Shown here: positions 936-17,097 of the stretch, in pieces
Numbering within the stretch: position 1 is the stretch's first letter
How the letters are laid out: every line of letters starts with the position of its first letter
DNA from: Vulcanimicrobiota bacterium
Lineage (GTDB): Bacteria; Vulcanimicrobiota; Xenobia; Xenobiales; JADMJV01
Direction of reading: 5' to 3'
NCBI GenBank assembly: GCA_019637395.1
Contig: JAHBVR010000002.1
Coordinates: forward strand, 133,495-197,494
DNA length: 64,000 nucleotides
Made by a program: the position numbers and the translations under genes
The notes under the pieces: generated by a model
What the model saw: the letters and a program-made list of their open reading frames with translations, nothing else
What the model was told of the DNA's origin: nothing
Databases searched by the model: none

Positions 936-3284
936 TTATCTGGCCATCGGAGGCGCCGGGTAGTCGCCCAGGCCGATCGGGGCCGAGATCAGCTTGTCAG
1001 GAATGCCGAAGGCGGATACCACGTCCCAGGCCATGGCGCGCGTCTGCTTGCAGAGCTCCAGCACTTGATCGCGGATAGCCTTGGCCTTGGTGCCCTCGAA
1101 GTAGCCGTTCTCCAAGAACCAGGCGCGATCCACCTCCAGGCGGGAGAGGGCGAACAGGCAGCAAAACTGCTGGAGCACGCCCTGGGTGGGCGCGTCCGGG
1201 CAACGCTGTACGGCTGCCTGGAAGCATTCCAGCAGATTGCGCTCGACGCTGGCTTTGGCCAGCGTGACCAGGTGATCCTGGCAATTATTGAAGGCGCTCC
1301 AGGTATCCTCGCCGCCTTCGATCATGCGCTTGAGGCGGCCGGCCACGCGCGTCAGCAGATGGTTTTCGCGGGCCTTGAAGGCGCGCAGGTGGAAATCGAA
1401 GTCGCGCAGGTGGGTGGGATCGACCGAGCGCGTCACCAGAGGATTCCAGGCGCTCACCGCCTCGGTGGCCCGACGTGACAGGTATTGAAGCAGTCCCACG
1501 AAACCCATCTCGGAGAACTGATGGCGGAAATCAGTCAGCAGCGACTTGGCTACCAGTTGCATGAGCACGGTGTTGTCGCCCTCGAAAGTCAGGAAAACGT
1601 CGAGATCATCGCGCATGGAGCCGAAGCGATTGGCCGCCAGGTAGCCCTGCCCTCCGCAGCATTCGCGGCATTGCTGCACGGTCTCGAAGGCGTGCCAGGT
1701 GCCCCAGGCTTTGAGGCCGGCGGCCAGGGCTTCGATGCGGCGGCGCCCGTCTTCGCTGTCCAGGCTGTCGACACAGCGTAGCGACAGATCCTGGAAGGCG
1801 AAGTTCAGGGCCAGCGTCGAGGCCAGACGTGGCAGCAGGCGGCGCTGGTGAGTTTGATAGTCGAGGATCGATTGTTCGGGAGCTCCTTCGGCGCCGAATT
1901 GGCGGCGCTGCTCGCCATAGCGCAGCGCGATGGTCAAGGCGTTTTTCGAGACACTGGTGGCGGCTGCGGCTAAAGTCACGCGTCCAAGCACCAGGGTGCT
2001 GATCATCGTAAAAAAACGTTTGGTCGGACTGGTAATGGGGCTGGTGTAGCTGCCGTCGGGCGATACCTGGGCGAAACGGTCGAGCAGGTTCAGGCGGGGA
2101 ATGCGCACCCGGGTGAAGCGGAGGCGGCCGTTGTCGACCCCGTTCAAACCGACCTTTTCGCCGCAGTCTTCGATGTGCACGCCGGGCATGGTCACGCCCT
2201 GGGCGTCGCGAATGCGCACCAGAAAGGCATGCACTCCATATTGTTGATCGCCGATGATCAGTTGGGCGAAGACGGTGGCCATCTGGGCGTGGAGCGCGGC
2301 GTTGCCGATGTAGTCTTTGCGGGCCGCCAGGTTGGGCGTGTGGATCACAAACTCCTGGCGTTCGACGTCGTAGGTAGCGGTGGTTTCCAGAGAGCGCACG
2401 TTGGAGCCATGACCGGTTTCCGTCATGGCGAAGCAGCCGGGTAATTCCAGAGAAAATCCGAGCGGCAGAATTTCCTGGTGATGGCGGGAGCTTCCGAGAT
2501 GATAGACGCTACCGCAGAAAAGGCCGAAGTGCACGCCGAACTTGATCACCAGCGACAGGTCAAAGTGGGCAAGGGCCTCAATCGAGGTGAGGAAGCCCAG
2601 CAGCTCGCCGCCGCCGCCCACTTCCACCGGGTAAGGCATCTTGCCCAGTCCTTCACGGCAGAATTCGATGCACCAGTTATAAACGCGGTCGCGGAAGACC
2701 GAAGTGGAGATGCCGTAATCGTGGCGAAAACGCGGGTGTTCCAGGGTTTGAAACATCTTCTCGCGCATTTCTGGGCGCGGACCGGCCAGCATCTTGCGCA
2801 GGGGGCGTGGATTGAAGCGCCGCGGCTCATCGCTGTGGGCCGCCTTGAAAGGGCAGGGGAGCAATTCGCCGGGAACGGCCGCGCCCGTCAACTGCAGATG
2901 CGTTTCCAGCAGCTCTAAGGAAGACTTGCCGGCGGCATCCAGCTCGGGTCCGGCCAGGGTGAGGGAGTAATCCATCAGACGATAGAGTGAACTCCAATCG
3001 CTGATGGAACTGCCCTGAGCCAACTGCAGAATCAACTGCTGCAATTGATTGAACTCTTGCGGGGTGAGTCCGGCGTCCAACAGCAGTCGAAGCGTTTTTA
3101 AGCCGCTCTCTTCAAAGGAATCGGCGGGGAGCTGACTGGCCAATTGCTGGAGGGCCTGGCTGTCCAGACTGCCTTCCGACCAGGCCACGAAAATCCAGGG
3201 AAGGACCGCGCGCTGCAACGGCGTCAATTGTCCGGCTGCCGAATTCAGCAAGACCTGGCGTTGATTCTCTACGGTTAGCGACAT
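936..3284 (-). CDS. Acyl-CoA oxidase / acyl-CoA dehydrogenase family flavoprotein
   Basis: This 782-residue protein would oxidise acyl-CoA to trans-2-enoyl-CoA using FAD. After an N-terminal helical region (about 1-190) comes the middle domain with MTETGHGSNV and a following beta region, then CGEKVGLNGVDNGRLRFTRV and a C-terminal helical domain with GGQGYLAANR and TFEGDN. This order, and the extra C-terminal helical domain, match acyl-CoA oxidases (ACOX type) rather than the ~380-residue dehydrogenases. The frame stays open upstream to 3788, but that extension translates the tandem repeat at 3371-3795 into low-complexity sequence. I therefore place the start at ATG 3284 (protein begins MSLTVENQRQ), although the Shine-Dalgarno sequence there is weak. 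Fatty acid beta-oxidation is the likely role. The mechanosensitive channel gene follows at once. Confidence 0.85.
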   Translation of the reverse strand: MSLTVENQRQVLLNSAAGQLTPLQRAVLPWIFVAWSEGSLDSQALQQLASQLPADSFEESGLKTLRLLLDAGLTPQEFNQLQQLILQLAQGSSISDWSSLYRLMDYSLTLAGPELDAAGKSSLELLETHLQLTGAAVPGELLPCPFKAAHSDEPRRFNPRPLRKMLAGPRPEMREKMFQTLEHPRFRHDYGISTSVFRDRVYNWCIEFCREGLGKMPYPVEVGGGGELLGFLTSIEALAHFDLSLVIKFGVHFGLFCGSVYHLGSSRHHQEILPLGFSLELPGCFAMTETGHGSNVRSLETTATYDVERQEFVIHTPNLAARKDYIGNAALHAQMATVFAQLIIGDQQYGVHAFLVRIRDAQGVTMPGVHIEDCGEKVGLNGVDNGRLRFTRVRIPRLNLLDRFAQVSPDGSYTSPITSPTKRFFTMISTLVLGRVTLAAAATSVSKNALTIALRYGEQRRQFGAEGAPEQSILDYQTHQRRLLPRLASTLALNFAFQDLSLRCVDSLDSEDGRRRIEALAAGLKAWGTWHAFETVQQCRECCGGQGYLAANRFGSMRDDLDVFLTFEGDNTVLMQLVAKSLLTDFRHQFSEMGFVGLLQYLSRRATEAVSAWNPLVTRSVDPTHLRDFDFHLRAFKARENHLLTRVAGRLKRMIEGGEDTWSAFNNCQDHLVTLAKASVERNLLECFQAAVQRCPDAPTQGVLQQFCCLFALSRLEVDRAWFLENGYFEGTKAKAIRDQVLELCKQTRAMAWDVVSAFGIPDKLISAPIGLGDYPAPPMAR

Positions 3285-3370
3285 CGAGGGGGGTTCGCCA
3301 GGATCTGTGGCATTCCCCTGCGCTTTGCCGTCGTCAAGAGTGGCGCCCATGGCCGGAAGCGTCAACCGGC

Positions 3371-3795
3371 ACCGGGCGGCGGCAATTGCCGGAAATTTGG
3401 CAAGAGTTGCCAAGGAAGCGGCAACCCCGGCCTCAGGTGGCGGCAATGCCGGAAACTTGGCAAGCGTTGCCAAGGAAGTGGCAACCCCGGCCTCAGGTGG
3501 CGGCAATGCCGGAAACTTGGCAAGAGTTGCAGAAAAGTGACAACCCCGGCGCCGGGTGGCGGCCATTGCCGGAAATTTGGCAAGAGTTGCCAGAAAAGTG
3601 GCAACCCCGGCCTCAGGTGGCGGCAATTGCCGGAAACTTGGCAAGAGTTGCCAGAAAGTAGCAAGCCTCGGCGCCGGGTGGCGGCCGTTTGCCGGAAACT
3701 TGGCAAGAGTTGCCAGAAAAGTGGCAACCCCGGCGCCGGGTGGCGGCCATTGCCGGAAATTTGGCAAGAGTTGCCAAAAAGGTGGCAACCTCGGC
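3371..3795. repeat. Tandem repeat array, seven imperfect copies of 60-61 bp
   Basis: Seven head-to-tail copies lie between the divergent acyl-CoA oxidase and the 849-residue protein gene. The core GCCGGAAA-YTTGGCAAG recurs at about 3389, 3449, 3509, 3569, 3630, 3692 and 3753. Each unit carries alternating TTGCC and GGCAA pentamers that can pair as short hairpins (GGCAA-GAG-TTGCC is the tightest), linked by a GC-rich CCCCGGC spacer that is either CTCAGG or GCCGGG. The array is open in several frames on both strands because the unit length is close to a multiple of three, so long ORFs across it are artefacts. The function is unknown: a protein-binding iteron-like regulatory array, a hairpin-rich leader or a neutral minisatellite are all possible. 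Confidence 0.92.
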
Positions 3796-3835
3796 CGAGG
3801 CAGGTCGACAACCGCAGCCGGAAAACCCTGAGGTT

Positions 3836-6385
3836 ATGCTTTCCGAGCCTTTTTGCAACTTCGAGGGATGCGCCAGTCCGGTGGATGTGCAGCAGCGATT
3901 GAGGGAGGCGGGTTTGAGTGCCAGCCCACGTTTGGCCACGCGACTCCTGGCTCTTCAACAACGCCTGGTCCGGCTCACCTGGTCGGCGCTGGAGGTCTTG
4001 CTGGCTGAAGGGCAATCCCAGTTGATGCGACCTGAGTGGCTACAACAGCCTTTTCCTCTCGAGCTGCTGACCACCGAACTGGAGCCGGCCGGTCTGGTTT
4101 TGCGCCAGCGCCGCGGTTTGCTGGAAGTCCTTTCGTCCGACGAAGTCTGGCTGGAATCGCAGGAAACGGCGCTGGTGCCGCTGGCCAGTGAAGCGGTCGC
4201 CCAGGCCATGGTGCGCCCTTCCCGGCCCGGTGTGGTCGATGAATGGCCGGATTCCTGGCGGATTGTGGCCGACGCCGAGGAGACTGCGCGTATTCTTGAG
4301 CACCTGCGTTCGGCCTTCCGCCAACTGCGCTCTCAAGGCGGCTCGCCGGCTCCGCTCCTGTGGCTGGCTCTCAAGCGCAAACGTCCCGAGGTTACTCGCG
4401 AAGTGGCCCGCCTGACCCACGAGTACCTCGACGCCGATGCCGGCCGCCAACTGGAGAATCTCTTTTCGCCGGTGGGCCACGTGGCCGCCAGCGCCCTCAA
4501 GCAATTGCGCCAGAACCTGGCCCACTGGGATCCAGCCTTTCTGGTCGGCCTGCTGCAGATCTTGTGGGACCAGAACGAACTGCGGCAACCCATCCTGGAG
4601 GTGGTGGAAGACTTGACCGGCCGTTGGCAGGAGCAGCCGGATTTGATCCTGGCCTGGTGGGAAGACTGCCTGGCTCAGGCGGCCAGCCTGGAGCCGCTGT
4701 TGGTGCAACGGCTGGCCCAGATTACCCTGCACTGGGCCCGCCTGGGCCTGGATCTGGTGCCCAGTCTGTTGCGGCGATTGCAGAAAGGTTTGGCGCTGGC
4801 CGAACGCATGCTGGCCAGTTGGTTGCTGGGCCAGCTCGATCTGCAGGGGGAGGAACGCCAATTGCTGCTGGAGCAGGCCTGGGCCCTGGCCGCCGAGCCG
4901 GGGCTGGGAGGCCAGTCGCTGGTGCGGGTCGAGCAGATTTTGACCAACCTGGGCTACGAGGCGATCGCCCCGCTGTTGGACGAACAGCGCTTTGGGCGGC
5001 TTCAGCCCGACCTGCGCTGCTGGCTGGTGGGCGAGGCTATGAACTGGCCGGATCTCAAGCGGGTGGCCGAGCTGCGCGCGCTTCAAGAGCTGGGCACCGG
5101 TTCACGGCGTATGCTGCGCCAACTCTCGGAGCTGGGCTGGAAGCTCGAGTTCGCGGTCGAGGACGAACTACGCTGGACTCTGGCCAGCTTTTTGGAGCAA
5201 GAGATTCCCCACCTGGAAGATCCCGATGATGCCTGGGCCATTGCCCTTCTGGTTCAGTTGGACCCGGATATTCTGCTGCGTCAGTTCTTGCAGGCCCGGC
5301 GTGACGCCGAGCTGCACTCGCGCGCCTTTCCCGTGCGCCTGGAAACGCTGGCCAAACATTGCGCCGCCTCGGACCGCCCGCCTACTCCGGAACGTCTGGA
5401 GTTCTTGTTGGAAGCCAGCTACGGCAATTCTGAGCGCCCCGAAATGTGGCGTTCCTGGGCGATCTTTTTGAGTTGTCCCAGTTTCCCCGAGGAACTGCGC
5501 TCCCTCGTCATCGATCATCTGGAAAAGGGGAAGCAAGCCTTTCCCCAACTCTGGCCGGAATGGTGGGAGCAGATCCAGCGCAGTCCTGACCGCAGGATCA
5601 GCGGCGCGGCCGAGTTGGACATACAAGGAGTGTTGACTGACGACACGGCCGGGCGCGGGACGGTGCAGGCTGTGCTGGAAACGCTGGGGCGCCGCGTCGG
5701 ATCCTGGTACCAGGCGCAAGACCTGGTCAAAGCCTTAAGCCGCCGCCTGCTTTTCTTGCCGGTGGAGCGTTCTCCCCAGCAACGTCTGCGCTGGGCCCTG
5801 GCCGAAGATTCGCAAGGTGACGGAGTCTTTCTGGCCCAGTCTTGGGACGCCGAGCAACGCGACCTGGCGCTGGGGCTGCTGGGGCAACTGGCCCAGCGGC
5901 CCGACCTGAGCGATGAGCTGCGCCGGCCGCTACGGGTGCGTTGCTGGCAGTTTTTGCGCGACTGGTTGGACGGCGTGGCCCGGGGCGGCGACAGCTATCA
6001 GCATCGTTCCATGCCGTTATGGACCACGGCCCGCCAGTTGCTGCCTCAGATCAGCGCGGCCGAGAGTGAATTGGTGGATGACCTGAGCGAAAGCGTCATC
6101 GGCCTGCAGGGCAGTTGCCCGGAACGGCTGCGCCTGCTGACCCATGGTGATTGCCTGGGTTTTTTGCTGGACTGGGCGATGGCCGCTTCTGAGCAGCAGG
6201 CCATCGTGCGCCAGCGCCAACTGCTGGTATTGCTGCAGCAATTGCTGGCCACCAGCGATCGCGACTATCGTCCGGTGGTGGTCGGCTATCTGGTGGGCCT
6301 GCCTACCGAACGTCTGCACCCCGGCATGCAGGCGGAATGGCTGCGCCTGCGCCAACGCTGGGAAGGCTGGCTCTACGGGGAATGA
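3836..6385 (+). CDS. Large leucine-rich helical protein of unknown function
   Basis: I do not recognise this 849-residue protein. It is soluble, with no signal peptide or membrane helix, and is extremely rich in Leu, Gln, Glu, Arg and Trp. Nearly the whole length predicts as alpha helices (for example LLQILWDQNELRQPILEVVE), as in HEAT- or TPR-like solenoid scaffolds, though I see no clear repeat register. I chose ATG 3836 because an AGG stretch precedes it and the longer reading (from 3689) only translates the tandem repeat. It stands alone on the plus strand, divergent from the acyl-CoA oxidase, so the repeat array is its immediate upstream region. The C-terminus ends WEGWLYGE. A role as a protein-interaction scaffold is only a guess from composition. 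Confidence 0.75.
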   Translation: MLSEPFCNFEGCASPVDVQQRLREAGLSASPRLATRLLALQQRLVRLTWSALEVLLAEGQSQLMRPEWLQQPFPLELLTTELEPAGLVLRQRRGLLEVLSSDEVWLESQETALVPLASEAVAQAMVRPSRPGVVDEWPDSWRIVADAEETARILEHLRSAFRQLRSQGGSPAPLLWLALKRKRPEVTREVARLTHEYLDADAGRQLENLFSPVGHVAASALKQLRQNLAHWDPAFLVGLLQILWDQNELRQPILEVVEDLTGRWQEQPDLILAWWEDCLAQAASLEPLLVQRLAQITLHWARLGLDLVPSLLRRLQKGLALAERMLASWLLGQLDLQGEERQLLLEQAWALAAEPGLGGQSLVRVEQILTNLGYEAIAPLLDEQRFGRLQPDLRCWLVGEAMNWPDLKRVAELRALQELGTGSRRMLRQLSELGWKLEFAVEDELRWTLASFLEQEIPHLEDPDDAWAIALLVQLDPDILLRQFLQARRDAELHSRAFPVRLETLAKHCAASDRPPTPERLEFLLEASYGNSERPEMWRSWAIFLSCPSFPEELRSLVIDHLEKGKQAFPQLWPEWWEQIQRSPDRRISGAAELDIQGVLTDDTAGRGTVQAVLETLGRRVGSWYQAQDLVKALSRRLLFLPVERSPQQRLRWALAEDSQGDGVFLAQSWDAEQRDLALGLLGQLAQRPDLSDELRRPLRVRCWQFLRDWLDGVARGGDSYQHRSMPLWTTARQLLPQISAAESELVDDLSESVIGLQGSCPERLRLLTHGDCLGFLLDWAMAASEQQAIVRQRQLLVLLQQLLATSDRDYRPVVVGYLVGLPTERLHPGMQAEWLRLRQRWEGWLYGE

Positions 6386-7251: not shown

Positions 7252-8931
7252 GTGGCACGCGAAAGCATTCAAAGTCTGATCCAGGCGGTCGGCCGGCACT
7301 CCGGTCAGGCCGCCCGTGAACTTCTCTACCAGGTCCGGGCCGAAGACCCGAGCCATTTTGTCTTACAACTGGTGGCCGCCGGCGTAGCCTGCCGGGCCAG
7401 CCGTATTCAGGTACGCAACGATGAACTGGACCTAGTGGTGGAGTTTAACGGCAATGTGCCCGGCCCCCAGGCCCTGGCCGATCTCTATGCCTCCTTCGAG
7501 AAAACCAGCAATGACGAGCGCACCCGCTATCTCTCGTTGGGCTTAAACAGCGCTTTCGCTACCGGCATCGCGGAGCTTCAGGTGGATACCTGGGATGGGC
7601 GAACCGGCATTCGCCTGGTGCTGACTCCCAGCAGCCAGAGCCACCAGTTGCTCAAGATGGACCCCTTCGGCGGGCAGAGCTGGGGCTTGCGGGTGCGCTG
7701 CCTGCAGCGCAGCAAGTTCGCCGCTCTGGCCCGGGCTGTCAAAAGTAAGGACGGCGGGCCGCCCGAGTGCCAGGCGGTGCGCGACCGCTGCCCCTGGGCC
7801 GGACCGGAAATCATCGTGGACCGGGTGGCTGTCAACGAAGAGGTGGCGGCCGGCAAAGTCCTGGCCTGGACCTGGATGGAACCGCAGTCGCCTCTGCCGC
7901 ATCTGGCCTTCCGCATCGCCCGGCCACGCCTGGGACTGGAGATTTCCGATCCGCCACCGGTTCCTTTTTACGCCCTGATGTGTTTGGGAGCCCAGGGTCT
8001 GGAATGGACGGGATTGCGCGCCATCGTGAACGGAGTCACCCTGCCGCCGCTGGCGGCCTTGAGTTTCCGCGATATCAGCGTGGTTCTCTCGGCCCCCGAG
8101 CTGGAGCCGGACGTCAATTTCACGGCCTTGCGTTCCACACCGCTTCTGGAGAAGGTGGTGGATGTGCTCAATACTTTGAGCGCCCGCCTGGCTCAGGAAC
8201 TGATGCGGCGCCGCGAACAGATCGGTTTCGATCAGGCCGAGCTGGGCGCGCGTATTTTCGAAGATCTCAGCCGTTATTACCAGCGCCAGGGACATCAGAA
8301 CGACAGCCTGGAAGCCCTGGGAGCGTGCCTGGAACTACGCGAGCAGGCGCTGGGAGCAACTCATCCGGATCTGGTGGACGGTTGGACTCAGTTACTCGAA
8401 CTCAACCGCAAAGTGGGCAACACCGATGCCATTCGGCCGATTCAGCAGCGTCTGGTTCCGTTGCTGCGAGCGGCGGGCGAGAATCACCTGCGCAAGCATC
8501 GGGTGGCCGACGCCACCAATTTGCTCAAGCGGGCGCTGGAATTGGAAGAACAGCTTCCCGACCCGCCCGCCGATCTGGCCAAACGCTATCATGAACTGGC
8601 CGTGCTGGTGAAGGAGCACCGTCTTTCCGGGGCCGAGGAGTTGTTTCAGAAAGCGCTGGGGCTGCAGCAAAGCTCGGCCGAAGCTTCCCCGGAGACGACT
8701 CTCAAGAGTTACTATGAGCTGGCCGATCGCCACCGCGCCAATCGCAAGTTGGCCGAGGCGGAAGTGCAGGCGCGCAAAGCTCTGGAACTGGCCGAGAAAG
8801 TGCATGGCAGCGAAAGCAAGGAACTGGTGCCTTACTTAAAATTGCTGGCCGAGATCCTCAAATCGGCCAACCGCTATTCGGATGCCACCGATTATGAGAG
8901 TCGGGCCATGACGCTGCGCTTCAAGCGGTAG
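7252..8931 (+). CDS. Degenerate HSP90-like GHKL domain fused to TPR repeats
   Basis: This 559-residue protein starts at GTG 7252. Residues about 25-310 resemble, by eye, the N-terminal part of the HSP90-like proteins at 10980-15662. The helix QLVAAGVACRASRIQV aligns with the GHKL N-box helix, LDLVVEFNG with the strand before the DxGxG loop, and RTRYLSLGLNS with the GxxGxG lid. The catalytic Glu/Asn, the DSGEG and GKFGIG motifs are all replaced, so it should not hydrolyse ATP. A CPW motif (DRCPWAGP) is shared with the 1041-residue protein. The C-terminal half (about 330-555) holds tetratricopeptide repeats (for example EVQARKALELAEKVHGSESKEL), usual in protein-protein contact. It probably works as an adaptor or client-binding partner of the ATPase encoded 7 kb downstream; this is inference. 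Confidence 0.7.
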   Translation: MARESIQSLIQAVGRHSGQAARELLYQVRAEDPSHFVLQLVAAGVACRASRIQVRNDELDLVVEFNGNVPGPQALADLYASFEKTSNDERTRYLSLGLNSAFATGIAELQVDTWDGRTGIRLVLTPSSQSHQLLKMDPFGGQSWGLRVRCLQRSKFAALARAVKSKDGGPPECQAVRDRCPWAGPEIIVDRVAVNEEVAAGKVLAWTWMEPQSPLPHLAFRIARPRLGLEISDPPPVPFYALMCLGAQGLEWTGLRAIVNGVTLPPLAALSFRDISVVLSAPELEPDVNFTALRSTPLLEKVVDVLNTLSARLAQELMRRREQIGFDQAELGARIFEDLSRYYQRQGHQNDSLEALGACLELREQALGATHPDLVDGWTQLLELNRKVGNTDAIRPIQQRLVPLLRAAGENHLRKHRVADATNLLKRALELEEQLPDPPADLAKRYHELAVLVKEHRLSGAEELFQKALGLQQSSAEASPETTLKSYYELADRHRANRKLAEAEVQARKALELAEKVHGSESKELVPYLKLLAEILKSANRYSDATDYESRAMTLRFKR

Positions 8932-8963
8932 GGATTTTGTCCGGCGGGTGCCAAGGGGCGGTC

Positions 8964-10829
8964 ATGCGAAAAACCACTCTGCTGGCCGGTCTGCTGCTGG
9001 CCGCCATGTCTTCTGCCCCCCTTGTTTCGGCCAAAGAAAGACGGGAGGTTCCCAAGGGACTCACCTGGGATCTCGAGCAGATCTATGCCAGTCCCGAGGC
9101 CTGGCAGGCCGCGCGCCAGAAGGTTGCCGCCCGTCTGCCCGAGATGTCCGCCTTTCAGGGTCATCTGGGCGAGCCCGGCAACCTCTGGACGGCTTTCAGC
9201 CGGCTCCTGGAAATTCGCAAGGAGCTGGAGCGCGTCAACGCTTACGCCTATTTTCTGGCCGATCAGGACACGCGCGATTCCCAGCACGCCGAGATGCGCT
9301 CCCAGGCCCAGCAATTGCTGACCGACTTTGAATCGGCTACCGCCTATTTCCGCCCCGAGTTGTTGGCTCTGGGCGAACCCAAAGTGAAGGCCTTGATCGC
9401 GGCTGAGCCCAGGTTGGCTGCCTACCAGGCCGTCTTTGACGATATTCTGCGCAGCGCTCCCCATACTCTGAGCAGCGGCGAGGAAAAACTGGTGGCTCAG
9501 GCGGGCGAGATGCAAGATTCGGGCCAGGCGGTGCACAGCGTTTTTACCGATGCCGACCTGCCCTATCCCGAGGTGCAACTGAAGAACGGACCAAAGGTGC
9601 GCCTGGATGCGGCCGGTTATACCAAGCATCGGGCCGATCCAACTCGAGAGAATCGGCTCAAAGTCTTCAAAGCTTTCTGGACGCGCTATAACGAGTTTCG
9701 GCGCACGCTGGCGGCCACGCTTTACGCTCAGGTCAAGGGCCACCTCTACGACCAGAGCGTGCACAAATATGATAGCTGTCTGGAAGCCGCGCTCTTTCCC
9801 AACAATGTGCCTCCCCAGGTGTATCACCAGTTGCTCAAAGATGTGCACGCCAACCTGCCCACGCTGCACCGTTATCTTAAGTTGCGACGTCGTTTAATGG
9901 GTCTCAAGCAGTTGGGCTACGAGGATCTGTACGCGCCTATCATTCAGGGCGTCGACCTGAAGTATACCCCCGAGCAGGCCATGAAGCTGACCTTGGAGGC
10001 GGCCGCGCCGTTGGGCGAGGACTATGTCAAAACTCTGAGCGGAGCTTATCAGGACCGCTGGGTGGATTTCTTGCCTTCGACTGGAAAGCGCTCGGGCGCC
10101 TACAGTTCGGGCGACGTCTACGACCTGCATCCCTACCAGTTGTTGAACTTCAACGGCAATTACGAGGACGTCTCCACCTTGAGTCACGAGTCAGGTCACT
10201 CGATGCACAGCTATCTGTCCAACAAGAATCAGCCGTACGGCCTCAACAGCTATCCGATTTTCGTGGCCGAAGTGGCTTCCACGCTCAACGAGAACCTGTT
10301 GTTTCATTACATGCTGGATCATACTCAGGACAAAAAGGTCAAGCTGAGTCTGCTGGGCAGCTACCTGGAGAACATGCGGGCCACGCTTTTCCGCCAGACG
10401 CTGCTGGCCGAATTCGAACTGAAGATTCACGAGATGGCCGAGCAAGGGCAACCGCTCACGGGGGACAACCTGAACGCTCTCTACCTCAAACTGCTGAGGG
10501 AATACTACGGCCACAATCAGGGGATCTGCCGGGTGGACGATCTCTACGCCATCGAGTGGGGTTATATCCCTCACTTCTTTTATAACTTTTACGTCTTTCA
10601 ATACGCCACCAGTCAGGTGGCCTCGACTTCCATCGCCAAAGCCATCCTGGCCGGGCAACCGGGCGCACGCAAGGCTTACTTAAAAATGCTCTCCTCGGGC
10701 AATTCGGAATACCCCCTGGTTCTGCTGCAAAAGGCGGGAGTGGATATGACCACCAGCCAGCCTTTTGCCGCGGCCATGACCGAGATGAATCACATTATGG
10801 ACGAAATCGAGAAACTCTCCCCGCCTTAG
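8964..10829 (+). CDS. pepF: Secreted oligoendopeptidase F (M3B zinc metallopeptidase)
   Basis: The protein has 621 residues. The start ATG 8964 has AAGGGG upstream and gives a signal peptide (RKTTLLAGLLLAAMSSAPL), so this copy is exported, unlike most cytoplasmic PepF. The catalytic zinc motif HESGH is at residues 408-412 (TLSHESGHSMHS), with the third ligand expected in VAEVASTLNENL about 30 residues on. The order of blocks (N-terminal PKGLTWDLEQIY, middle AALFPNNVPPQVYHQLL, C-terminal YATSQVASTSIAKAIL) is typical of the M3B family. It would cut short peptides of roughly 7-17 residues in the envelope. It follows the HSP90-like/TPR gene by 32 bases on the same strand. A hairpin with minus-strand terminator character follows its stop. 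Confidence 0.9.
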   Translation: MRKTTLLAGLLLAAMSSAPLVSAKERREVPKGLTWDLEQIYASPEAWQAARQKVAARLPEMSAFQGHLGEPGNLWTAFSRLLEIRKELERVNAYAYFLADQDTRDSQHAEMRSQAQQLLTDFESATAYFRPELLALGEPKVKALIAAEPRLAAYQAVFDDILRSAPHTLSSGEEKLVAQAGEMQDSGQAVHSVFTDADLPYPEVQLKNGPKVRLDAAGYTKHRADPTRENRLKVFKAFWTRYNEFRRTLAATLYAQVKGHLYDQSVHKYDSCLEAALFPNNVPPQVYHQLLKDVHANLPTLHRYLKLRRRLMGLKQLGYEDLYAPIIQGVDLKYTPEQAMKLTLEAAAPLGEDYVKTLSGAYQDRWVDFLPSTGKRSGAYSSGDVYDLHPYQLLNFNGNYEDVSTLSHESGHSMHSYLSNKNQPYGLNSYPIFVAEVASTLNENLLFHYMLDHTQDKKVKLSLLGSYLENMRATLFRQTLLAEFELKIHEMAEQGQPLTGDNLNALYLKLLREYYGHNQGICRVDDLYAIEWGYIPHFFYNFYVFQYATSQVASTSIAKAILAGQPGARKAYLKMLSSGNSEYPLVLLQKAGVDMTTSQPFAAAMTEMNHIMDEIEKLSPP

Positions 10830-10834
10830 GAGCG

Positions 10835-10974
10835 CGGCCGAAAACCCCCTTGACAACGTCAAGAGGGGGTTGGAGGCTGCGAGACGTCCAACGGGTTGTG
10901 CTAGAATCCGGCCGACTATACCATATCCAGTGGAGGAGCGGCTTGCCCGCGACGGAACTGGGGGTTTTCGGCCG
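10835..10974. other. Intergenic 15-bp inverted repeat enclosing a hairpin and an extended -10-like site
   Basis: CGGCCGAAAACCCCC at 10835-10849 recurs exactly inverted at 10960-10974, 110 bases away. Between the arms lie the terminator hairpin (10843-10872) and a TGCTAGAAT sequence (10899-10907), which fits an extended -10 promoter on the plus strand. The right arm itself ends in GGGGGTTTTC, so a short plus-strand transcript could start near 10914 and stop near 10970. No convincing protein is encoded. This may be a small RNA unit or a duplicated terminator; I see no matching -35. Confidence 0.4.
10839..10872 (-). terminator. Rho-independent terminator for the minus-strand HSP90-like operon
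   Basis: AACCCCCTTGAC and GTCAAGAGGGGGTT form a long stem with one bulged base and a 3-base loop. Read on the minus strand the stem is followed by a short T run (TTTT at 10844-10841), which suits termination of transcripts leaving the 1041-residue gene that ends at 10980. There is no T run on the plus-strand side. Confidence 0.6.
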
Positions 10975-10979
10975 GACTT

Positions 10980-13900
10980 CTAAAGCTGGGCCAGCATGGC
11001 CTCGAGATAGGCCAGTTCGTGTTCGTCGTTGACGTCGTCGAGGGCGCGGTTGATGGCCGTGTAGACGGCCGAGGCCAGCACCGGCACTCTGTGCTCCCAA
11101 CCTTTCTGTTCGCGAAAAAGGCGGATGAAGATCGCGTCGGCGGGATTGAGGCGGGTGGTGGCTTCATCGGCTTCGTGCTTGATGAAATACTTGCGGGGAC
11201 CACCAAACCAGCGAGTGGGCTCGCCGAAACGCAATCCTTCCACCCATTCCGGCTGAAGCGGGGATTGAGAGCGTTGGCAGGTCTGCACGAGAAATTGTTT
11301 GATCTCGCTCAGCAGTTGCTCTTCCTTCTTTTCTTCGACTTCCAAAATCGCCGGCTGCAGGGGTTTCCGGATCAACTTTTCCAGATCGGCCACTTCGAAG
11401 GGGGGATTCAGGCGCAGGGTTTGATAGGGCCTGGCCACTTTTCCCGCTCCCAGAGGTGCCCAAAATAAGGGCTGGTCTGACTGGCGCAGGCTGTGGAAAT
11501 CGACCACCTGGCCGGCCAGGTTGTGCACCAGCGGCACCCGCAGAAAGCAGCTTTCCTCACAGGCCGAGGCCCAGGGATCGCGCAAAAGAAACTGGGCGAA
11601 CCGGCGCGCCCAGGCCGAGCCGATTTCGAGATAGCCGGCCCCGGCCAATTTCTGGGCGGCGATTTTGAAGAGGAAGCGTAGCGCCCACACTAGGTCCGTT
11701 TGCAGCTCGGCCTGTAACTGGAAGGGCAGCTCCGGCTCGGGCCAGCACTCGTCCGCGTTGGTCAGTTCGGAATCGGAACGCAGCAAAGGAAAAACGAATT
11801 GGGGGCGGGCTTGCCAACCGGCCGGCACCTCCAGCCAGCCGCCCACTCCAGCCAGGTCCAGGCAATAGGCCACCGGATCTTGCTCGCCGAGCTTGACCAA
11901 TAATCGATCTCCCTGGAGAGGTTTAGGAAGCGCTCCGTCATGGACGAAAACCAGACCGTGCAGGCCTTCCTGCTGAAAAGCCACCTGCCAGCGCTGGTTG
12001 AGGACCTGGCTGGCCTCGTTGCAGGCCCGCACGAACTCGGAAAGCGACGGCTGAGACTCTGGCTGCGGCGTATGGATGTGAATTCCCAACTGGCGGAGAA
12101 CCGCGTCCTGGTCCAGTGGTTTTACCTCGGCGGCCATCAGGCCGTCCTGTTCGGCCAGTTCAATTTCGCGCTGGATGGCCGCCAGTTCGGCGTCTTCATC
12201 GAAGCTCTCGGCCTTCTTGACGCCGACTCGGGCGGCGCCGCTGAGCCCCAACTGCTGACCCCGCTCCAGCAGGAAGGGCTGCGAGAGGTCGGCCAGCACG
12301 AACTTTTCATGTCCCAGTACTTCGCTCAAGGCTTCGAGTAGCTTGGGAGTAACGGCCAGAGCGTGGTCTTCCTGGCTCAAAGCGGAACCGTAGCTCACCA
12401 CCAGGCTGGGATAGACTTCCAGCCAGGCGCGCAGGTCCTGGAGCCTGACTTCGGCTGACTGCACCGAATGAAACAGCGAAAGGGATTGCCATTCCGGTTG
12501 GCTGAAAGCCTTCACTAGGCTGCCGTGACGATATTCCAAATAGTGCAGAAAGGAGCGTTGCAAGGAACGCAGCGAGACGATTTCGCCGGCCTGGTTGGTC
12601 AGCCGCTGGCCGAGTTCGCGGTAACAGGGCTCGACGTAGTCCTGCAAGAGACGCTTGAGCGCGTCGGGCTTCAGGGTAAAGCGCTGTTCTGATACGATGG
12701 CGAAACTTAGAGGGCTTTTACCCAGGCGCACCCGTTCCGCCTCCGAGTTCTGAGCGCGAATATAAAGATCAACCTGGCCTTCGGGAGAGGCGTCGGGAAT
12801 GCGGAACTCCAGTTGGCCCCGTTCCGAAGCCGCGATGCGCATGGCCAGGGCCGGCGGAAGGCGCTGACTGCGCTCCCATTTATGGCGCTGCAGGCTGTTT
12901 TGCAGCGTGGAGGCATCCAGACGCTGGATTTTTTGTAGCTCGGGAAACAGCGTCCGCAACGAGTTGGCGCCGCTGTCGCTGAGGCGAATGCAGCTTCCGG
13001 GATCGCAGGCGAACAGACGATGGTGATCGTCGGTGTAAAAGGCGACGCCGAATTCCTGGATGACCGACCAGATCTGGCGGGCGCTACAGCGCTTGCCGTC
13101 GCTGCTCTGAAACATCTGGGCGTTGCACAGCCTGGCTTCCAGCGGACTGAGATGGTGTTCGGCCAGGGCCAGCAACTCCGAGCTGAGATTTTGCACCACC
13201 AGTTCCTGGAAGTAATGAAACACCTGCTGCGCCTGATAACCGGGCAGGCGCTTGCCGGCCAGTTCCAGCGCAAATTCCAACTGGATTTTCTGCAGTTCGG
13301 CTAGCATGGAGGAGTAGTTCTCGTCTTCCACCACGTCGCTCTGAGAAGCATTCTTACGCAGCCGGTCGTGTTCCATTTCCACAATCAAAGAGGGCAGAAT
13401 GCGCGCCTCCGGCCGCTTGCTGAAGACCACTCCGTAGCGGGTCAAGGTGAGATGGGTGGCCGTGATTTCACCATAGGCGATGCCGAAGGCGCCGCGGAAG
13501 CCATCGCCCTGGAAGGCATAGTTCGGCCAGGGACAGCCGGTATTTCGAACAGATGTACGGCAAGATGCGATGGTTTCATTGACATAGATATCTGCCCGGC
13601 AGCTCTGGCAGGTCTGGCGCAGAGTTTGCTGTTCCTGCGTGTCTCCGCGCCGATGCTGGATGATGATTTCGTTGCGCTCGTGCTCGGCCTCGGAAATCTT
13701 GCCGCATCCCGGGCCGCGTTCCCAGCGCGTTCCCTGACTGCTGATGGAAACATCGCGAGGATTGAGCGCCTGCACCGAGAGCAATCCCAGCGCCAGCTCG
13801 CGGATGCGATCGCGCTGGCGATTTTTGCCGGATTCGAAGACCGCGTCGGAAATACGCTCGAGCTCTTCTCGGCTGTAGCCGGGGCCGTCAAACTCGATTT

Positions 13901-14105
13901 TGACGTTCATTCCCTCGATCAATACTTGAATGTGCAGGGCCTGATTGGCCAGCAAGGCCTGGACCAGTTGGGTAATGTAGTAACGTGGATCGGGTAATTG
14001 GAATTTTTTGAGTTTCTCCTGAGCCTTCTCCACCGCCAGCGTAAAGTGGCCCTGGCGCACCAGCGCCGCGCCTTCTTCGATCATCTCGATGAGATCAGGA
14101 GTCAT
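10980..14105 (-). CDS. 1041-residue protein with degenerate HSP90-like N-terminal module
   Basis: Residues about 40-260 align by eye with the GHKL module of the ATPase encoded just upstream. LVQALLANQALHIQV matches LIQNAMDAGSNQVDV, the FDGPGYSREELERISDAVF stretch matches ADSGEGMSEKVIDEQL, and IRELALGLLSVQALNP matches IGKFGIGFVSIFAIQP. The nucleotide-binding residues (N, DxGxG, GxxGxG) are lost, so this copy is probably non-catalytic. A Cys-rich stretch (TCQSCRADIYVNE, then NTGCPWPNY) may bind zinc. The remaining ~750 residues contain no domain I can name; there is an acidic coiled-coil segment near 640-680 and a conserved-looking C-terminus. The start ATG 14105 lies 3 bases after the ATPase stop, a tight operon. 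A subunit or regulator of the ATPase is the best guess. Confidence 0.68.
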   Translation of the reverse strand: MTPDLIEMIEEGAALVRQGHFTLAVEKAQEKLKKFQLPDPRYYITQLVQALLANQALHIQVLIEGMNVKIEFDGPGYSREELERISDAVFESGKNRQRDRIRELALGLLSVQALNPRDVSISSQGTRWERGPGCGKISEAEHERNEIIIQHRRGDTQEQQTLRQTCQSCRADIYVNETIASCRTSVRNTGCPWPNYAFQGDGFRGAFGIAYGEITATHLTLTRYGVVFSKRPEARILPSLIVEMEHDRLRKNASQSDVVEDENYSSMLAELQKIQLEFALELAGKRLPGYQAQQVFHYFQELVVQNLSSELLALAEHHLSPLEARLCNAQMFQSSDGKRCSARQIWSVIQEFGVAFYTDDHHRLFACDPGSCIRLSDSGANSLRTLFPELQKIQRLDASTLQNSLQRHKWERSQRLPPALAMRIAASERGQLEFRIPDASPEGQVDLYIRAQNSEAERVRLGKSPLSFAIVSEQRFTLKPDALKRLLQDYVEPCYRELGQRLTNQAGEIVSLRSLQRSFLHYLEYRHGSLVKAFSQPEWQSLSLFHSVQSAEVRLQDLRAWLEVYPSLVVSYGSALSQEDHALAVTPKLLEALSEVLGHEKFVLADLSQPFLLERGQQLGLSGAARVGVKKAESFDEDAELAAIQREIELAEQDGLMAAEVKPLDQDAVLRQLGIHIHTPQPESQPSLSEFVRACNEASQVLNQRWQVAFQQEGLHGLVFVHDGALPKPLQGDRLLVKLGEQDPVAYCLDLAGVGGWLEVPAGWQARPQFVFPLLRSDSELTNADECWPEPELPFQLQAELQTDLVWALRFLFKIAAQKLAGAGYLEIGSAWARRFAQFLLRDPWASACEESCFLRVPLVHNLAGQVVDFHSLRQSDQPLFWAPLGAGKVARPYQTLRLNPPFEVADLEKLIRKPLQPAILEVEEKKEEQLLSEIKQFLVQTCQRSQSPLQPEWVEGLRFGEPTRWFGGPRKYFIKHEADEATTRLNPADAIFIRLFREQKGWEHRVPVLASAVYTAINRALDDVNDEHELAYLEAMLAQL

Positions 14106-14108
14106 GGG

Positions 14109-15662
14109 TTAACTCCAGCACCGCTTGAGCATTTTGGCTTCCAAATCCTGAGGCAGGCCGTCCTGCAGCAGGGCCGCTTTGCTCAATGCGTAAGCGCAGA
14201 TTTCCGGAAAGTCGCGATATTTGTCCAATGCCTGCAACACCAAAGTGTGGCGGTGGTTGAGCAGCAGACGGCCGGGATAGATGGTCAGGTTACGCCAGAT
14301 CCCTCGTTGGAACAGGCGGGTGGCCTGGCCCACCTTGCTCTCGGCCAGACAGGGTAGCCCCTGCACGCAGGACCCACTGTAGTCGAAATCGGCCAGATGC
14401 ACGCCGCCCAGCCGGGTTTCGCCTAACCGCAAATATTCGCGCATGCTCTCTTCCACACGGTTCCATTCGCCGGGCAACTGGGATTTATCGAGTGACTGCG
14501 GGCAGGCCACCACCTGATTGGCCTGGTAAAAGGAACGCGAGCAGAAAAGCCCGACCACCTCGGTGGCGGACTGCCCCCAGAGCACGGGGAGCTCCTCGCG
14601 GGCCAGCGCTTCGGTCACGGGGCCGCTGACCAGGTCGTAATAGATGGCCCCCTCCAGAAATCCCTTGGATTTAAGCAGGCTCAGAGAAACCAGGCCGTGG
14701 TGGTGGGTGGGCAGGAGCGGGCGGTTGGCCAGGCGCTTGAGTAACTTGGGCCGGGCCCGCAACCAGGCAAAAGCGGCGTGCATGAGCTCTTCCAACTCGT
14801 CCAGACCGTCTGGAAGCCGGCGTTGCAAAGCCGTGACTTTGGCCACAAAGACTTCCACCAGTTGATTTTCGGCGGCGCCGTTCAGGATGGCCATGGCCTT
14901 GTGGTAGTTGGCGTCCACAATCACGTTATCGCGGGTCAGAGTGTGTTCCAAATAGTTTGACTTGATGCGGAAAGTCAGCCCGGGCAAGAGGGCGTCCTGT
15001 CCCTGCTTCAGGGTCAAACCGTGGTTGTACATACCGAATTCGGGCAAGGCTTCGGCAGTCATGCCCACCACCGCTCGCGTACCGGGACCGCTAACTTCCA
15101 CCGAACAGGGAGATTCCACCGCCAGTTCTTTGTTGAGCAGTCGCCCATTGAAGCTCACCTGGGTTTCCGAGTAGCCGCACCAGTAGGAGATGGTGTCCTC
15201 GGAGCGGCGCAGGAATTCGGGCCAGGCCACGGCCGGCAGGCGTTTGAAAAGGCGGATCGAGGTTCCTTCCACCGGATTTTTGAGGCGGTAGAGCAGATAT
15301 TGGGTCGTGCCCGGGAAGACCACGCGCCAGAAGGCACCGTCGCGGCCGGTATCGAGCACCACACACTCGGGCTGAATGGCGAAAATCGAGACAAAGCCGA
15401 TGCCGAACTTGCCGATTTTGGTCATGTCGTGCTCTTTGGTCGAGGAGAACAGGCGGGTCAATTGCTCGTCGATGACCTTTTCGCTCATGCCTTCGCCGCT
15501 ATCGGCTACCGTCACCGTGACCCGTTCCTGAACCTCGTCGTACTCACAGAAAACGTCGACCTGGTTGGAGCCTGCGTCCATGGCGTTCTGGATCAATTCG
15601 CGGTAGAAAGTAAAGGGGTCACTGAACTGATCGACCAGATTCTCAAAGACTTCCTCAATCAC
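14109..15662 (-). CDS. HSP90-like GHKL ATPase (HtpG-related, divergent)
   Basis: This 517-residue protein carries an intact GHKL/Bergerat ATP-binding fold in its first ~190 residues: the N box ELIQNAMDAGSN with catalytic Glu and Mg-binding Asn, the G1 loop VADSGEGMSEK, the lid GKFGIGFVS and the GTSIRLFKR strand. The middle region (to about 260) ends in TLTRDNVIVDANYHKAM, like the junction after the HtpG N-domain. The C-terminal half shows no recognisable HSP90 dimerisation domain, and the protein is shorter than HtpG (~620). It could be a chaperone-like ATPase working with the 1041-residue protein encoded 3 bases downstream. It is divergent from the M48 protease gene. MutL and histidine kinases share the fold, but the lid and strand order point to HSP90. 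Confidence 0.82.
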   Translation of the reverse strand: MIEEVFENLVDQFSDPFTFYRELIQNAMDAGSNQVDVFCEYDEVQERVTVTVADSGEGMSEKVIDEQLTRLFSSTKEHDMTKIGKFGIGFVSIFAIQPECVVLDTGRDGAFWRVVFPGTTQYLLYRLKNPVEGTSIRLFKRLPAVAWPEFLRRSEDTISYWCGYSETQVSFNGRLLNKELAVESPCSVEVSGPGTRAVVGMTAEALPEFGMYNHGLTLKQGQDALLPGLTFRIKSNYLEHTLTRDNVIVDANYHKAMAILNGAAENQLVEVFVAKVTALQRRLPDGLDELEELMHAAFAWLRARPKLLKRLANRPLLPTHHHGLVSLSLLKSKGFLEGAIYYDLVSGPVTEALAREELPVLWGQSATEVVGLFCSRSFYQANQVVACPQSLDKSQLPGEWNRVEESMREYLRLGETRLGGVHLADFDYSGSCVQGLPCLAESKVGQATRLFQRGIWRNLTIYPGRLLLNHRHTLVLQALDKYRDFPEICAYALSKAALLQDGLPQDLEAKMLKRCWS

Positions 15663-15720: not shown

Positions 15721-17097
15721 ATGCGGAAATTTTTATGCGCCGGGATGCTCTTGCTGAGTTTGAGCGCTTGGGCTCAGAGCGCTCCACCCCCGGTCGGCGT
15801 GATGTTCGTCGACGGGAAGGGCCACTGGGATCCTCTCAACCAGGCCGAAGCCACCTCACTGTTGCGCCCCGAGGTCATTAAAAAGCTCAGCTATGAACAG
15901 CGCCAGGACCTTTTGCACGAGCCGGAGCGACTGCTGGCTTGCTCGCGAGTGCGCGAGATTTTTTCTACTCCCCGTTTGCTCTTGCTGCCACCCCAGCGAG
16001 AGGGTCGCATTTTGGGAATTTATTTTGATTTGGAGAGCAAGGTCCGAGAAACTCTGCTGGCGGATGCGGATTTGAGCCCTCAGGAGGGGCGCGAGCAGTT
16101 GCTCCAGCTGGCCCAGAAGAAGTACGGACCGCATTCGGTGGCGGTTCTGGCCAATCCGCAGAGTCATCGCTACCACCTGCGCCACGCCAGCCATGTCGAC
16201 ACCAGCGGCGGCCTGCTTGAAATCCCCAGTTCTTACCAGGCCGAGGCCCAGGGTTATACGGCCTGTGAAATTTGCTTTGAGGCCGTGAACCGACCGGTCG
16301 ATCAGGACGAACTGGAGCGCTCGCTCGGCCAGCAATTGGCCCGCCAGGTGGAGTCGGAGTTTCGCCTCAGCCAGGATCCGGTGCTCATCGAGCGGGTGCA
16401 GCGCGTCGGGCGCCGCTTGCTCACCGGCAATCAGCTGGCCAACAACTACCGCTTTATCGTGCTCGAATCCGATAAGATCAATGCTTTTGCCGTACCCACC
16501 GGGCCGCTCTACGTAACCACGGCCCTGCTCAACGTGGTGGAATCGGAAGACGAATTATCGGGGGTGATGGGTCACGAGCTGGCCCATTCCGAGCTGCACC
16601 ACGGCCGGCGCCAGTATGAGCAAGCCCAGCAATGGTCGTGGCTGAGCCTGCTGGCCGGTATCGCCACGCGTAACGCCTGGCTCTACAACGCCACTCAGAT
16701 GTTCGGGTCCATGCTGACGCGCGGTTATTCCCGCGATTTTGAATTGGAAGCCGACCGCCAGGGCGTCTGGTATTCCTATGGAGCGGGCTATCGAGCCGAT
16801 CACTTCAAGCTGACCTTGCAGAAATTTCTCGACCTCGAGAAGAAGCGGGGAACAGGCGGTTTCACCTGGCTGCGCACCCATCCCGGGAGCGAACAGCGCC
16901 TGCAGGAAATCAACGATATTCTGGGGCGGGTCGAACCATTGCGCTTGCTTCTGGAAGAGATCGAGCCGGTGGACGCGGGTCTGGCCGGACATCTGCAGCG
17001 CAAGGGCTCGCAATTTTTGGAAGACCCGCAGGAAGTGGTGCGTTTTTACGCAGCCTACCGGCAGCTCAATTTTTCATCGGTGAGCCCAGGCCAGTAG
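15721..17097 (+). CDS. Secreted M48-family zinc metalloprotease
   Basis: The protein has 458 residues. A signal peptide (RKFLCAGMLLLSLSAWAQS) is followed by a ~200-residue region with a CEIC pair in the context AQGYTACEICFEA. This resembles the short GY.PC..C zinc-knuckle motif, but only the second pair of cysteines is kept. The catalytic M48 domain follows: HELAH at 285-289 and the third ligand in FELEADRQG at about 341-346. The family includes BepA/YfgC-type periplasmic quality-control proteases, which degrade misfolded envelope proteins. No TPR domain follows here. The 3' end overlaps the convergent serine protease gene by 24 bases. Its position beside the HSP90-like genes suggests a proteostasis neighbourhood (inference). 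Confidence 0.88.
   Translation: MRKFLCAGMLLLSLSAWAQSAPPPVGVMFVDGKGHWDPLNQAEATSLLRPEVIKKLSYEQRQDLLHEPERLLACSRVREIFSTPRLLLLPPQREGRILGIYFDLESKVRETLLADADLSPQEGREQLLQLAQKKYGPHSVAVLANPQSHRYHLRHASHVDTSGGLLEIPSSYQAEAQGYTACEICFEAVNRPVDQDELERSLGQQLARQVESEFRLSQDPVLIERVQRVGRRLLTGNQLANNYRFIVLESDKINAFAVPTGPLYVTTALLNVVESEDELSGVMGHELAHSELHHGRRQYEQAQQWSWLSLLAGIATRNAWLYNATQMFGSMLTRGYSRDFELEADRQGVWYSYGAGYRADHFKLTLQKFLDLEKKRGTGGFTWLRTHPGSEQRLQEINDILGRVEPLRLLLEEIEPVDAGLAGHLQRKGSQFLEDPQEVVRFYAAYRQLNFSSVSPGQ

Follow-up and report, generated by a model that had tools for sequence, protein, structure and literature searches.

Do three neighbouring genes that resemble one live and two dead copies of Hsp90 encode the parts of a single machine? 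The question is raised by positions 7252 to 15662 of a 64,000-nucleotide stretch of DNA from a Vulcanimicrobiota bacterium, which as a whole is hereafter referred to as the window. A preliminary description had proposed three Hsp90-like paralogues here, one catalytic subunit and two pseudo-chaperone partners whose ATP motifs are replaced, one of them carrying tetratricopeptide repeats (TPRs). The three open reading frames (ORFs) are present where it had placed them.

14109-15662, minus strand: Hsp90/sacsin-type GHKL ATPase, 517 amino acids (aa), active site intact in sequence (Pfam, NCBIfam, profile matches)
10980-14105, minus strand: pseudo-Hsp90 partner, 1041 aa (ORF, profile, profile-profile, fold match)
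7252-8931, plus strand: pseudo-Hsp90/TPR fusion, 559 aa (ORF, Pfam, fold match, hhalign)

Here, we propose that the ATPase and the 1041-aa protein probably form a heteromeric chaperone of the Hsp90 type, with the ATPase driving a dead, client-binding partner. The gene pair is found in at least three bacterial phyla and appears to be undescribed. No description of it was found in the open-licence literature on bacterial sacsin, Hsp90-like and pseudo-Hsp90 proteins and on conflict systems, which is not proof of novelty, and PMC7159879 mentions none of HSP90, GHKL and sacsin.

The ATPase and the 1041-residue protein

The ATPase can be described as composed of an N-domain (residues 1 to about 160) and a middle-type domain (164-332), followed by an uncharacterised C-terminal part. 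The intact GHKL motifs noted earlier are all present (RELIQNAMDAG, ADSGEGM and GKFGIGF). The protein scores above the Pfam cut-offs for HATPase_c_3 (1.8e-12), HATPase_c and SACS (PF25794; 1.4e-9, 38.5 bits against a cut-off of 32.8), and above that of NCBIfam P_loop_sacsin (NF047352; 54.6 bits, cut-off 50). Profile A1, whose alignment holds 22 ATPase sequences, matches GRP94, TRAP1, HtpG and sacsin in the PDB, and a model of the middle domain (M-domain) finds this domain in the ATPase with E=9e-21. The residues of the predicted active site are as follows.

15570-15602, minus strand: ATP motif 1, RELIQNAMDAG, with general-base Glu22 and Mg-binding Asn26 (invariant in alignment A1)
15486-15503, minus strand: ATP motif 2, DSGEGM, with Asp54, Gly56 and Gly58 (alignment A1 and ATPase-wide alignment)
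15393-15413, minus strand: ATP motif 3, GKFGIGF, with Gly84, Gly87 and Gly89 (alignment A1 and ATPase-wide alignment)
14928-14945, minus strand: HTLTRD motif in the catalytic loop of the middle domain, with Arg244 (invariant in alignment A1)

RELIQNAMDAG is kept in about 79 of 84 ATPases, the remainder being alignment gaps. Arg244 is the positional counterpart of Arg380 of Hsp90 and of Arg474 of sacsin, in which the equivalent middle-repeat arginine has been described (PMC9880540). The ATPase lies far below the cut-offs of full-length HSP90 models (HtpG, 31.4 bits, cut-off 371; the HSP90-family PRK14083, 38.9, cut-off 455), and neither it nor the 1041-aa partner has a match to Pfam HSP90 (PF00183) at E<=1.

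The start codon of the partner lies 3 nucleotides (nt) past the stop codon of the ATPase. Its ATP motifs are replaced by FDGPGY, RELALGL and KNASQSD, and neither it nor the 559-aa TPR protein has a significant match to the GHKL/HSP90 models of Pfam (the best for the 1041-aa protein is HATPase_c, E=0.22). The relationship of the two degenerate proteins to the ATPase, first proposed from an alignment by eye, is borne out by profiles. A pseudo-only profile, from which all ATPases had been removed, matches ATPases colinearly with E-values down to 1.8e-18, and it matches the ATPase of the window at E=3.6e-12 across residues 12-271. By hhalign, the ATPase aligns to the family of the 1041-aa protein over 332 columns (E=7.7e-24) and to the alignment built for the TPR protein over 261 columns (E=9.4e-20). 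Furthermore, when profile A2 of the pseudo proteins is compared with PDB sequences, it picks up the HtpG middle domain (E=4e-4), and all 31 of its PDB matches at E<=1 are Hsp90s.

Structure prediction had been suggested as a check for a GHKL fold, and both pseudo proteins are modelled as an Hsp90 N-domain plus middle domain (N-M). In the AlphaFold model of the 1041-aa protein, residues 40-400 mostly have a predicted local distance difference test (pLDDT) score above 90, and the top PDB fold match is TRAP1, the mitochondrial Hsp90 (E=7.7e-12, probability 1.00). The model of the TPR protein has a pLDDT of about 80 in the N-domain core and is low in 207-271; TRAP1 is again the top match (E=1.5e-8). 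Both are therefore predicted, from sequence and models, to be Hsp90 N-M proteins, beyond merely GHKL-like.

The loss of the active site was followed by aligning 65 adjacent partners from three phyla to the ATPase. The Mg-binding Asn26 is changed to Ala in 55 of them and the adenine-binding Asp54 to Phe or Tyr in 53; of the lid glycines, Gly84 has become Arg in 55 and Gly87 Ala in 59. Arg244 of the middle domain is also replaced, most often by Gln (32), His (10) or Gly (7). The ATPases retain these residues, barring alignment gaps and a few diverged sequences. Because the replacements are themselves conserved, we regard the partner as a maintained pseudo-enzyme and not as a decaying gene. Purifying selection agrees with this view: the ratio of nonsynonymous to synonymous substitution rates (dN/dS) against genus relatives lies at 0.11-0.17 for the partner gene, and the ATPase and TPR genes have 0.04-0.12; for the two relatives that are further away, synonymous sites are close to saturation.

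The partner is further distinguished by tandem middle domains.

13197-14096, minus strand: residues 4-303, comprising the inactive N-domain and the first middle domain as far as the helix of the catalytic loop (profile bounds, pLDDT)
12939-13601, minus strand: middle-domain repeat 1, residues 169-389 (M-domain model E=4e-41)
12312-12893, minus strand: middle-domain repeat 2, residues 405-598 (M-domain model E=2e-13)
11373-11618, minus strand: partial middle-domain repeat 3, residues 830-911 (M-domain model E=4e-7)

The partner of the window thus carries two repeats and a partial third. Almost all partners have 2-8 copies, and their length follows the copy number (r=0.85). The M-domain model is specific, as 206 of its 211 matches among 7704 ORFs fall in the pseudo-Hsp90/ATPase family and at least two of the five others resemble partner fragments. 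Beyond repeat 1, no repeat directly matches a PDB sequence, and the later ones match the catalytic-loop region of the ATPase by hhalign (E=2.6e-6), so that the identity of the extra repeats rests on the family model together with this comparison. In the closest relative (L133:3160-5277, 5314-6297), the orthologue of the 1041-aa protein is interrupted near residue 705 by a stop codon in frame, the remainder being open downstream; this may be a sequencing error or a real truncation.

Conservation of the gene pair

A single scan across 84,980 species genomes yielded 81 ATPases at 80 named loci, and pair loci are found in Eremiobacterota, Myxococcota (e.g. Nannocystis, Plesiocystis, Enhygromyxa and Archangium) and Elusimicrobiota. 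Of the 81 ATPases, 64 are immediately followed, on their own strand, by the gene of a large pseudo-Hsp90. In 62 of these 64, its expected start is -38 to +67 nt from the ATPase stop, and the reading frames mostly overlap or abut. The module that we propose, an intact ATPase with a pseudo-Hsp90 of the form N-(M)n encoded directly behind it and in the same orientation, is hence found in the window and at these 64 ATPases, across three phyla. In genome G006 (locus L110), from another family, the two genes are fused into one that encodes a protein of 1901 aa.

The co-occurrence of ATPase and pseudo-partner, which had been put forward as a check, is conserved in three phyla for the 1041-aa type. 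Among 58 relatives, the identical 13 genomes hold both proteins; among 141 Myxococcota, 26 have both, one has the ATPase only, one the pseudo protein only and 113 neither. The mirror-tree distances of ATPase and partner correlate with r=0.79, compared with at most 0.12 in 1000 shuffles, and shared species history contributes to this value. Homologues lying far from the ATPase had been named as evidence against a common system. Those of the 1041-aa type adjoin an ATPase almost everywhere, while TPR-like single-domain proteins are mostly scattered. The genome of the window (7.66 Mb) has two further ATPases, at C7 and C36, the former followed by its own 1322-aa pseudo partner, and all three copies are kept across the genus and are not sporadic.

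These data bear on whether the partner is a tandem duplicate with a separate scaffold function, co-transcribed with the ATPase and not a subunit of the same machine. Such duplicates commonly remain adjacent, and dozens of relatives of the partner work without an adjacent ATPase. However, the adjacency in three phyla with overlapping or abutting frames, the gene fusion, the mirrored distances and the near-perfect co-occurrence all speak against this explanation, and we consider it improbable. What was computed for the pair comprises homology and fold of the pseudo proteins, three-way sequence homology, loss of the ATP residues, tandem order, fusion, co-occurrence, co-evolution and purifying selection, and it is from these that we infer a physical complex with ATP hydrolysis, client binding and chaperone activity.

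A heteromeric chaperone and known systems

In the heteromeric chaperone, the small subunit would bind and hydrolyse ATP by means of its GHKL N-domain and middle-domain arginine, like Hsp90 and sacsin. The large subunit would be an obligate pseudo-Hsp90 that has kept the fold of the N-domain and lost ATP binding, and its tandem middle domains would extend the surface which holds clients in Hsp90. Binding of ATP would close the active subunit against the inactive one, so that clients are clamped and remodelled asymmetrically, the dead subunit serving as a fixed N-domain surface with several middle domains as a client grip. Hydrolysis would then release the client.

The best functional clue is a cyclophilin-type prolyl isomerase gene, which supports a role in protein folding. 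It lies directly upstream of the C7-type ATPase in all five genus genomes, and directly upstream of the fused gene of G006 as well.

L040:7048-7497; also L111, L121, L124, L125 and L110: cyclophilin-type prolyl isomerase beside the paralogous pair

Several observations weigh against a chaperone made of these two subunits. No Hsp90 C-terminal dimerisation domain was recognised in the pair, and the C-terminal LNxxHP element common to ATPase and partner is weak (hhalign probability 85%). The C36 ATPase has no partner, and altogether 17 of the 81 ATPases lack one directly downstream on the same strand. Two of these have a partner immediately upstream, a few have one in the vicinity, and for two the available sequence stops short of the downstream stretch. 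Moreover, at about 20 loci in three phyla the ATPase is preceded by a string of genes for a coiled-coil protein, an unknown protein and an AAA+ ATPase, which is not an obvious folding context. A shared C-terminal dimer domain was considered and rejected, its signal being weak and its control not clean (9/67 versus 15/1000).

The same upstream string would suit a different explanation, in which the pair is an ATP-driven switch in defence or signalling (Tiamat-, MORC- or STAND-like) and the large partner a sensor or effector scaffold. The ATPase N-domain weakly matches models of the Tiamat anti-phage protein TmtA (best 2.5e-12), and carriers include large-genome, often social lineages such as the Myxococcota. 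However, the TmtA models align to the N-domain only, covering some 85 positions out of 1300-1780 (for instance, 70-153 in a profile of 1486), and TmtA is a single protein of more than 1300 aa, not a two-gene system. Domain searches of the partners showed neither a nuclease or TIR domain nor any other known effector; the cyclophilin precedes the C7-type pair; and the three ATPase copies are genus-wide. No defence-island evidence was seen around the pair, though no search was aimed at it. Assignment to a defence system was not adopted, the PADLOC matches to TmtA being confined to the N-domain, and a switch of this kind seems to us rather unlikely, if less so than the tandem duplicate.

The heteromeric chaperone has its closest counterparts in Hsp90 (HtpG, TRAP1 and GRP94). 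The ATPase shares with them the GHKL N-domain and the middle domain with its catalytic-loop arginine, TRAP1 is the nearest fold match to the modelled N-M region in both pseudo proteins, and the middle domain of the partner matches HtpG by sequence. However, Hsp90 is a homodimer in which both subunits are identical and active and have a C-terminal dimer domain, whereas here there are two different predicted subunits, of which the partner has lost all ATP residues, has a replaced catalytic arginine and carries 2-8 tandem middle domains. A canonical HtpG is encoded elsewhere in the genome of the window, so the pair is an addition, and its reading as an HtpG replacement was rejected.

With sacsin (SACS), the similarity extends to the N-domain of the ATPase, to several Hsp90-like modules in a chain, as in the fused gene of G006 with its sacsin-like layout, and to the middle-repeat arginine (PMC9880540). 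Unlike sacsin, neither ATPase nor partners have DnaJ, HEPN or ubiquitin-like domains by Pfam, and there are two genes in place of one giant protein. The pocket residues, reported as conserved among the sacsin repeats (PMC9880540), are lost in the partner. As judged from sequence, the pair would be a variant within the Hsp90/sacsin kind and a member of neither; we place it outside both because it has neither the sacsin architecture, nor a recognised dimer domain, nor matches above the HSP90/HtpG cut-offs. Two non-identical GHKL subunits also act together in MLH1/PMS1 of the MutL type. There, both keep the GHKL motifs, whereas here one has none, and the PDB profile matches of the partner are Hsp90s only, with no MutL.

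Hsp90 is viewed as a homodimer opened and closed by ATP, and the contribution of each protomer, including asymmetric or one-sided hydrolysis, has long been in question. If the proposal holds, a natural system of one live and one dead protomer in three phyla would make this question directly testable. It also provides bacterial relatives for human sacsin, which is poorly understood and built of repeats.

The TPR protein, the dispersed family and neighbouring genes

The third gene of the locus encodes two parts.

7309-8268, plus strand: inactive Hsp90 N-M domain, residues 20-339 (pseudo-domain model 7.7e-68; TRAP1 fold)
8227-8925, plus strand: TPR region, about residues 326-558 (Pfam TPR_12 1.1e-14; helical repeats in the AlphaFold model)

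The ATP pocket and the catalytic arginine are replaced in the TPR protein, which does not have the GHKL motifs of Hsp90. A CPW motif had been thought to be common to the two pseudo proteins. It stands at a conserved C position in the TPR protein (CPW / CQS / CGY) and about 20 residues later in the 1041-aa protein; as the alignment columns are not homologous, we dismiss it as coincidence.

One catalytic subunit with two pseudo partners, as first envisaged, is retained in part. Both proteins are homologues without the ATP motifs, and the 1041-aa type co-occurs with the ATPase, but the TPR protein is not upheld as a second subunit. It is a neighbour of the pair in each of the five genomes of the genus and is absent from the vicinity of the pair in other genera. 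With up to about 60 paralogues in the 7.66 Mb genome, the chance of one lying within about 7 kb of any point is about 0.1, and because of this density nearness to the pair is weak evidence. Furthermore, the gene is on the strand opposite to the pair, and an M3 peptidase gene intervenes in 4 of the 5 genomes. On balance, it is likelier than otherwise a passenger without a role in the pair, belonging to the numerous single-domain pseudo-Hsp90s that are dispersed through the genome; this view concerns the TPR protein alone and is compatible with the heteromeric chaperone. Against it, the gene stays beside the pair even at locus L096, where the M3 gene is gone and 536 nt separate it from the partner, and the C7 pair also has a genus-conserved single-domain pseudo protein a few kb off (L040, L111, L121, L124, L125). 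In addition, TPRs are the classic co-chaperone module of Hsp90.

The pseudo N-M domain reveals a large unannotated protein family, for which no Pfam or NCBIfam model exceeds its cut-off. Its profile has 61 matches in the genome of the window, about 25 of them stronger than E=1e-38, these being matches and not genes and possibly including ATPases. There are 56-76 in relatives of the genus and family and 0-4 in most other members of the phylum. Single pseudo-Hsp90 proteins number roughly 25-60 per genome in the genus and lie mostly far from any ATPase, and among 71 neighbours of the dispersed single-domain paralogues no neighbour class is enriched. One such paralogue (L041:6778-7964; G000 C10) is broken across two overlapping frames and may be a pseudogene. 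This family of dozens, like the two further ATPases and the tandem middle domains, goes beyond the preliminary description.

In a genus with dozens of single pseudo-Hsp90s, some with TPRs as at 7252-8931, the few active ATPases could draw on these as interchangeable adaptors or receptors for clients; such a role for the standalone proteins is our conjecture. It is possible, if doubtful, that this is a class of bacterial chaperone in which Hsp90 is divided between a catalytic subunit and a large family of ATP-dead ones. The dead subunits would comprise an obligate partner, bearing as many as eight tandem middle domains, together with the dozens of interchangeable single-domain receptors of one Eremiobacterota lineage. 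If so, a few active ATPases would gain many client specificities, like one motor with many adaptors.

Two metallopeptidase genes flank the pair in the window.

8937-10829, plus strand: oligoendopeptidase F (M3), between the TPR protein and the pair (NCBIfam pepF 554 bits, above cut-off)
15721-17097, plus strand: M48 metallopeptidase, divergent neighbour of the ATPase (Pfam Peptidase_M48 8.3e-27)

The M48 gene also adjoins the pair in G002, in G003 and in another genus (G005), and the M3 neighbour may be incidental. Both are a weaker clue than the cyclophilin. At several ATPases without a pseudo partner, a small DUF6941-type protein is encoded directly downstream (L117:8456-8971, L119, L142, L146, L103, L140, L116).

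The upstream string consists of a coiled-coil protein of about 355 aa, a protein of about 340 aa without Pfam or PDB matches, and an AAA+ ATPase of about 550 aa (GxPGCGKT, VYWPDID), followed by the GHKL ATPase with or without a pseudo partner.

L045:10302-15715; L175:5887-14832; L138:1750-11697; L191; L170: examples of the upstream string

Its members are highly conserved and unannotated. The string has the look of a separate, undescribed machine, which the ATPase could also serve.

Elsewhere in the window, a few kb from the pair and with no sign of linkage to it, 20729-26464 (minus strand) encodes a 1911-aa DUF3686 / DUF7902 / AAA protein ('ATPase involved in DNA repair'). At about 3360-3940, G+C-rich direct repeats translate in overlapping frames as NSCQISGNGRHPAPG / LATLAKFPA units, and because these repeats lie between the genes 936-3788 and 3689-6385, the starts of both are uncertain.

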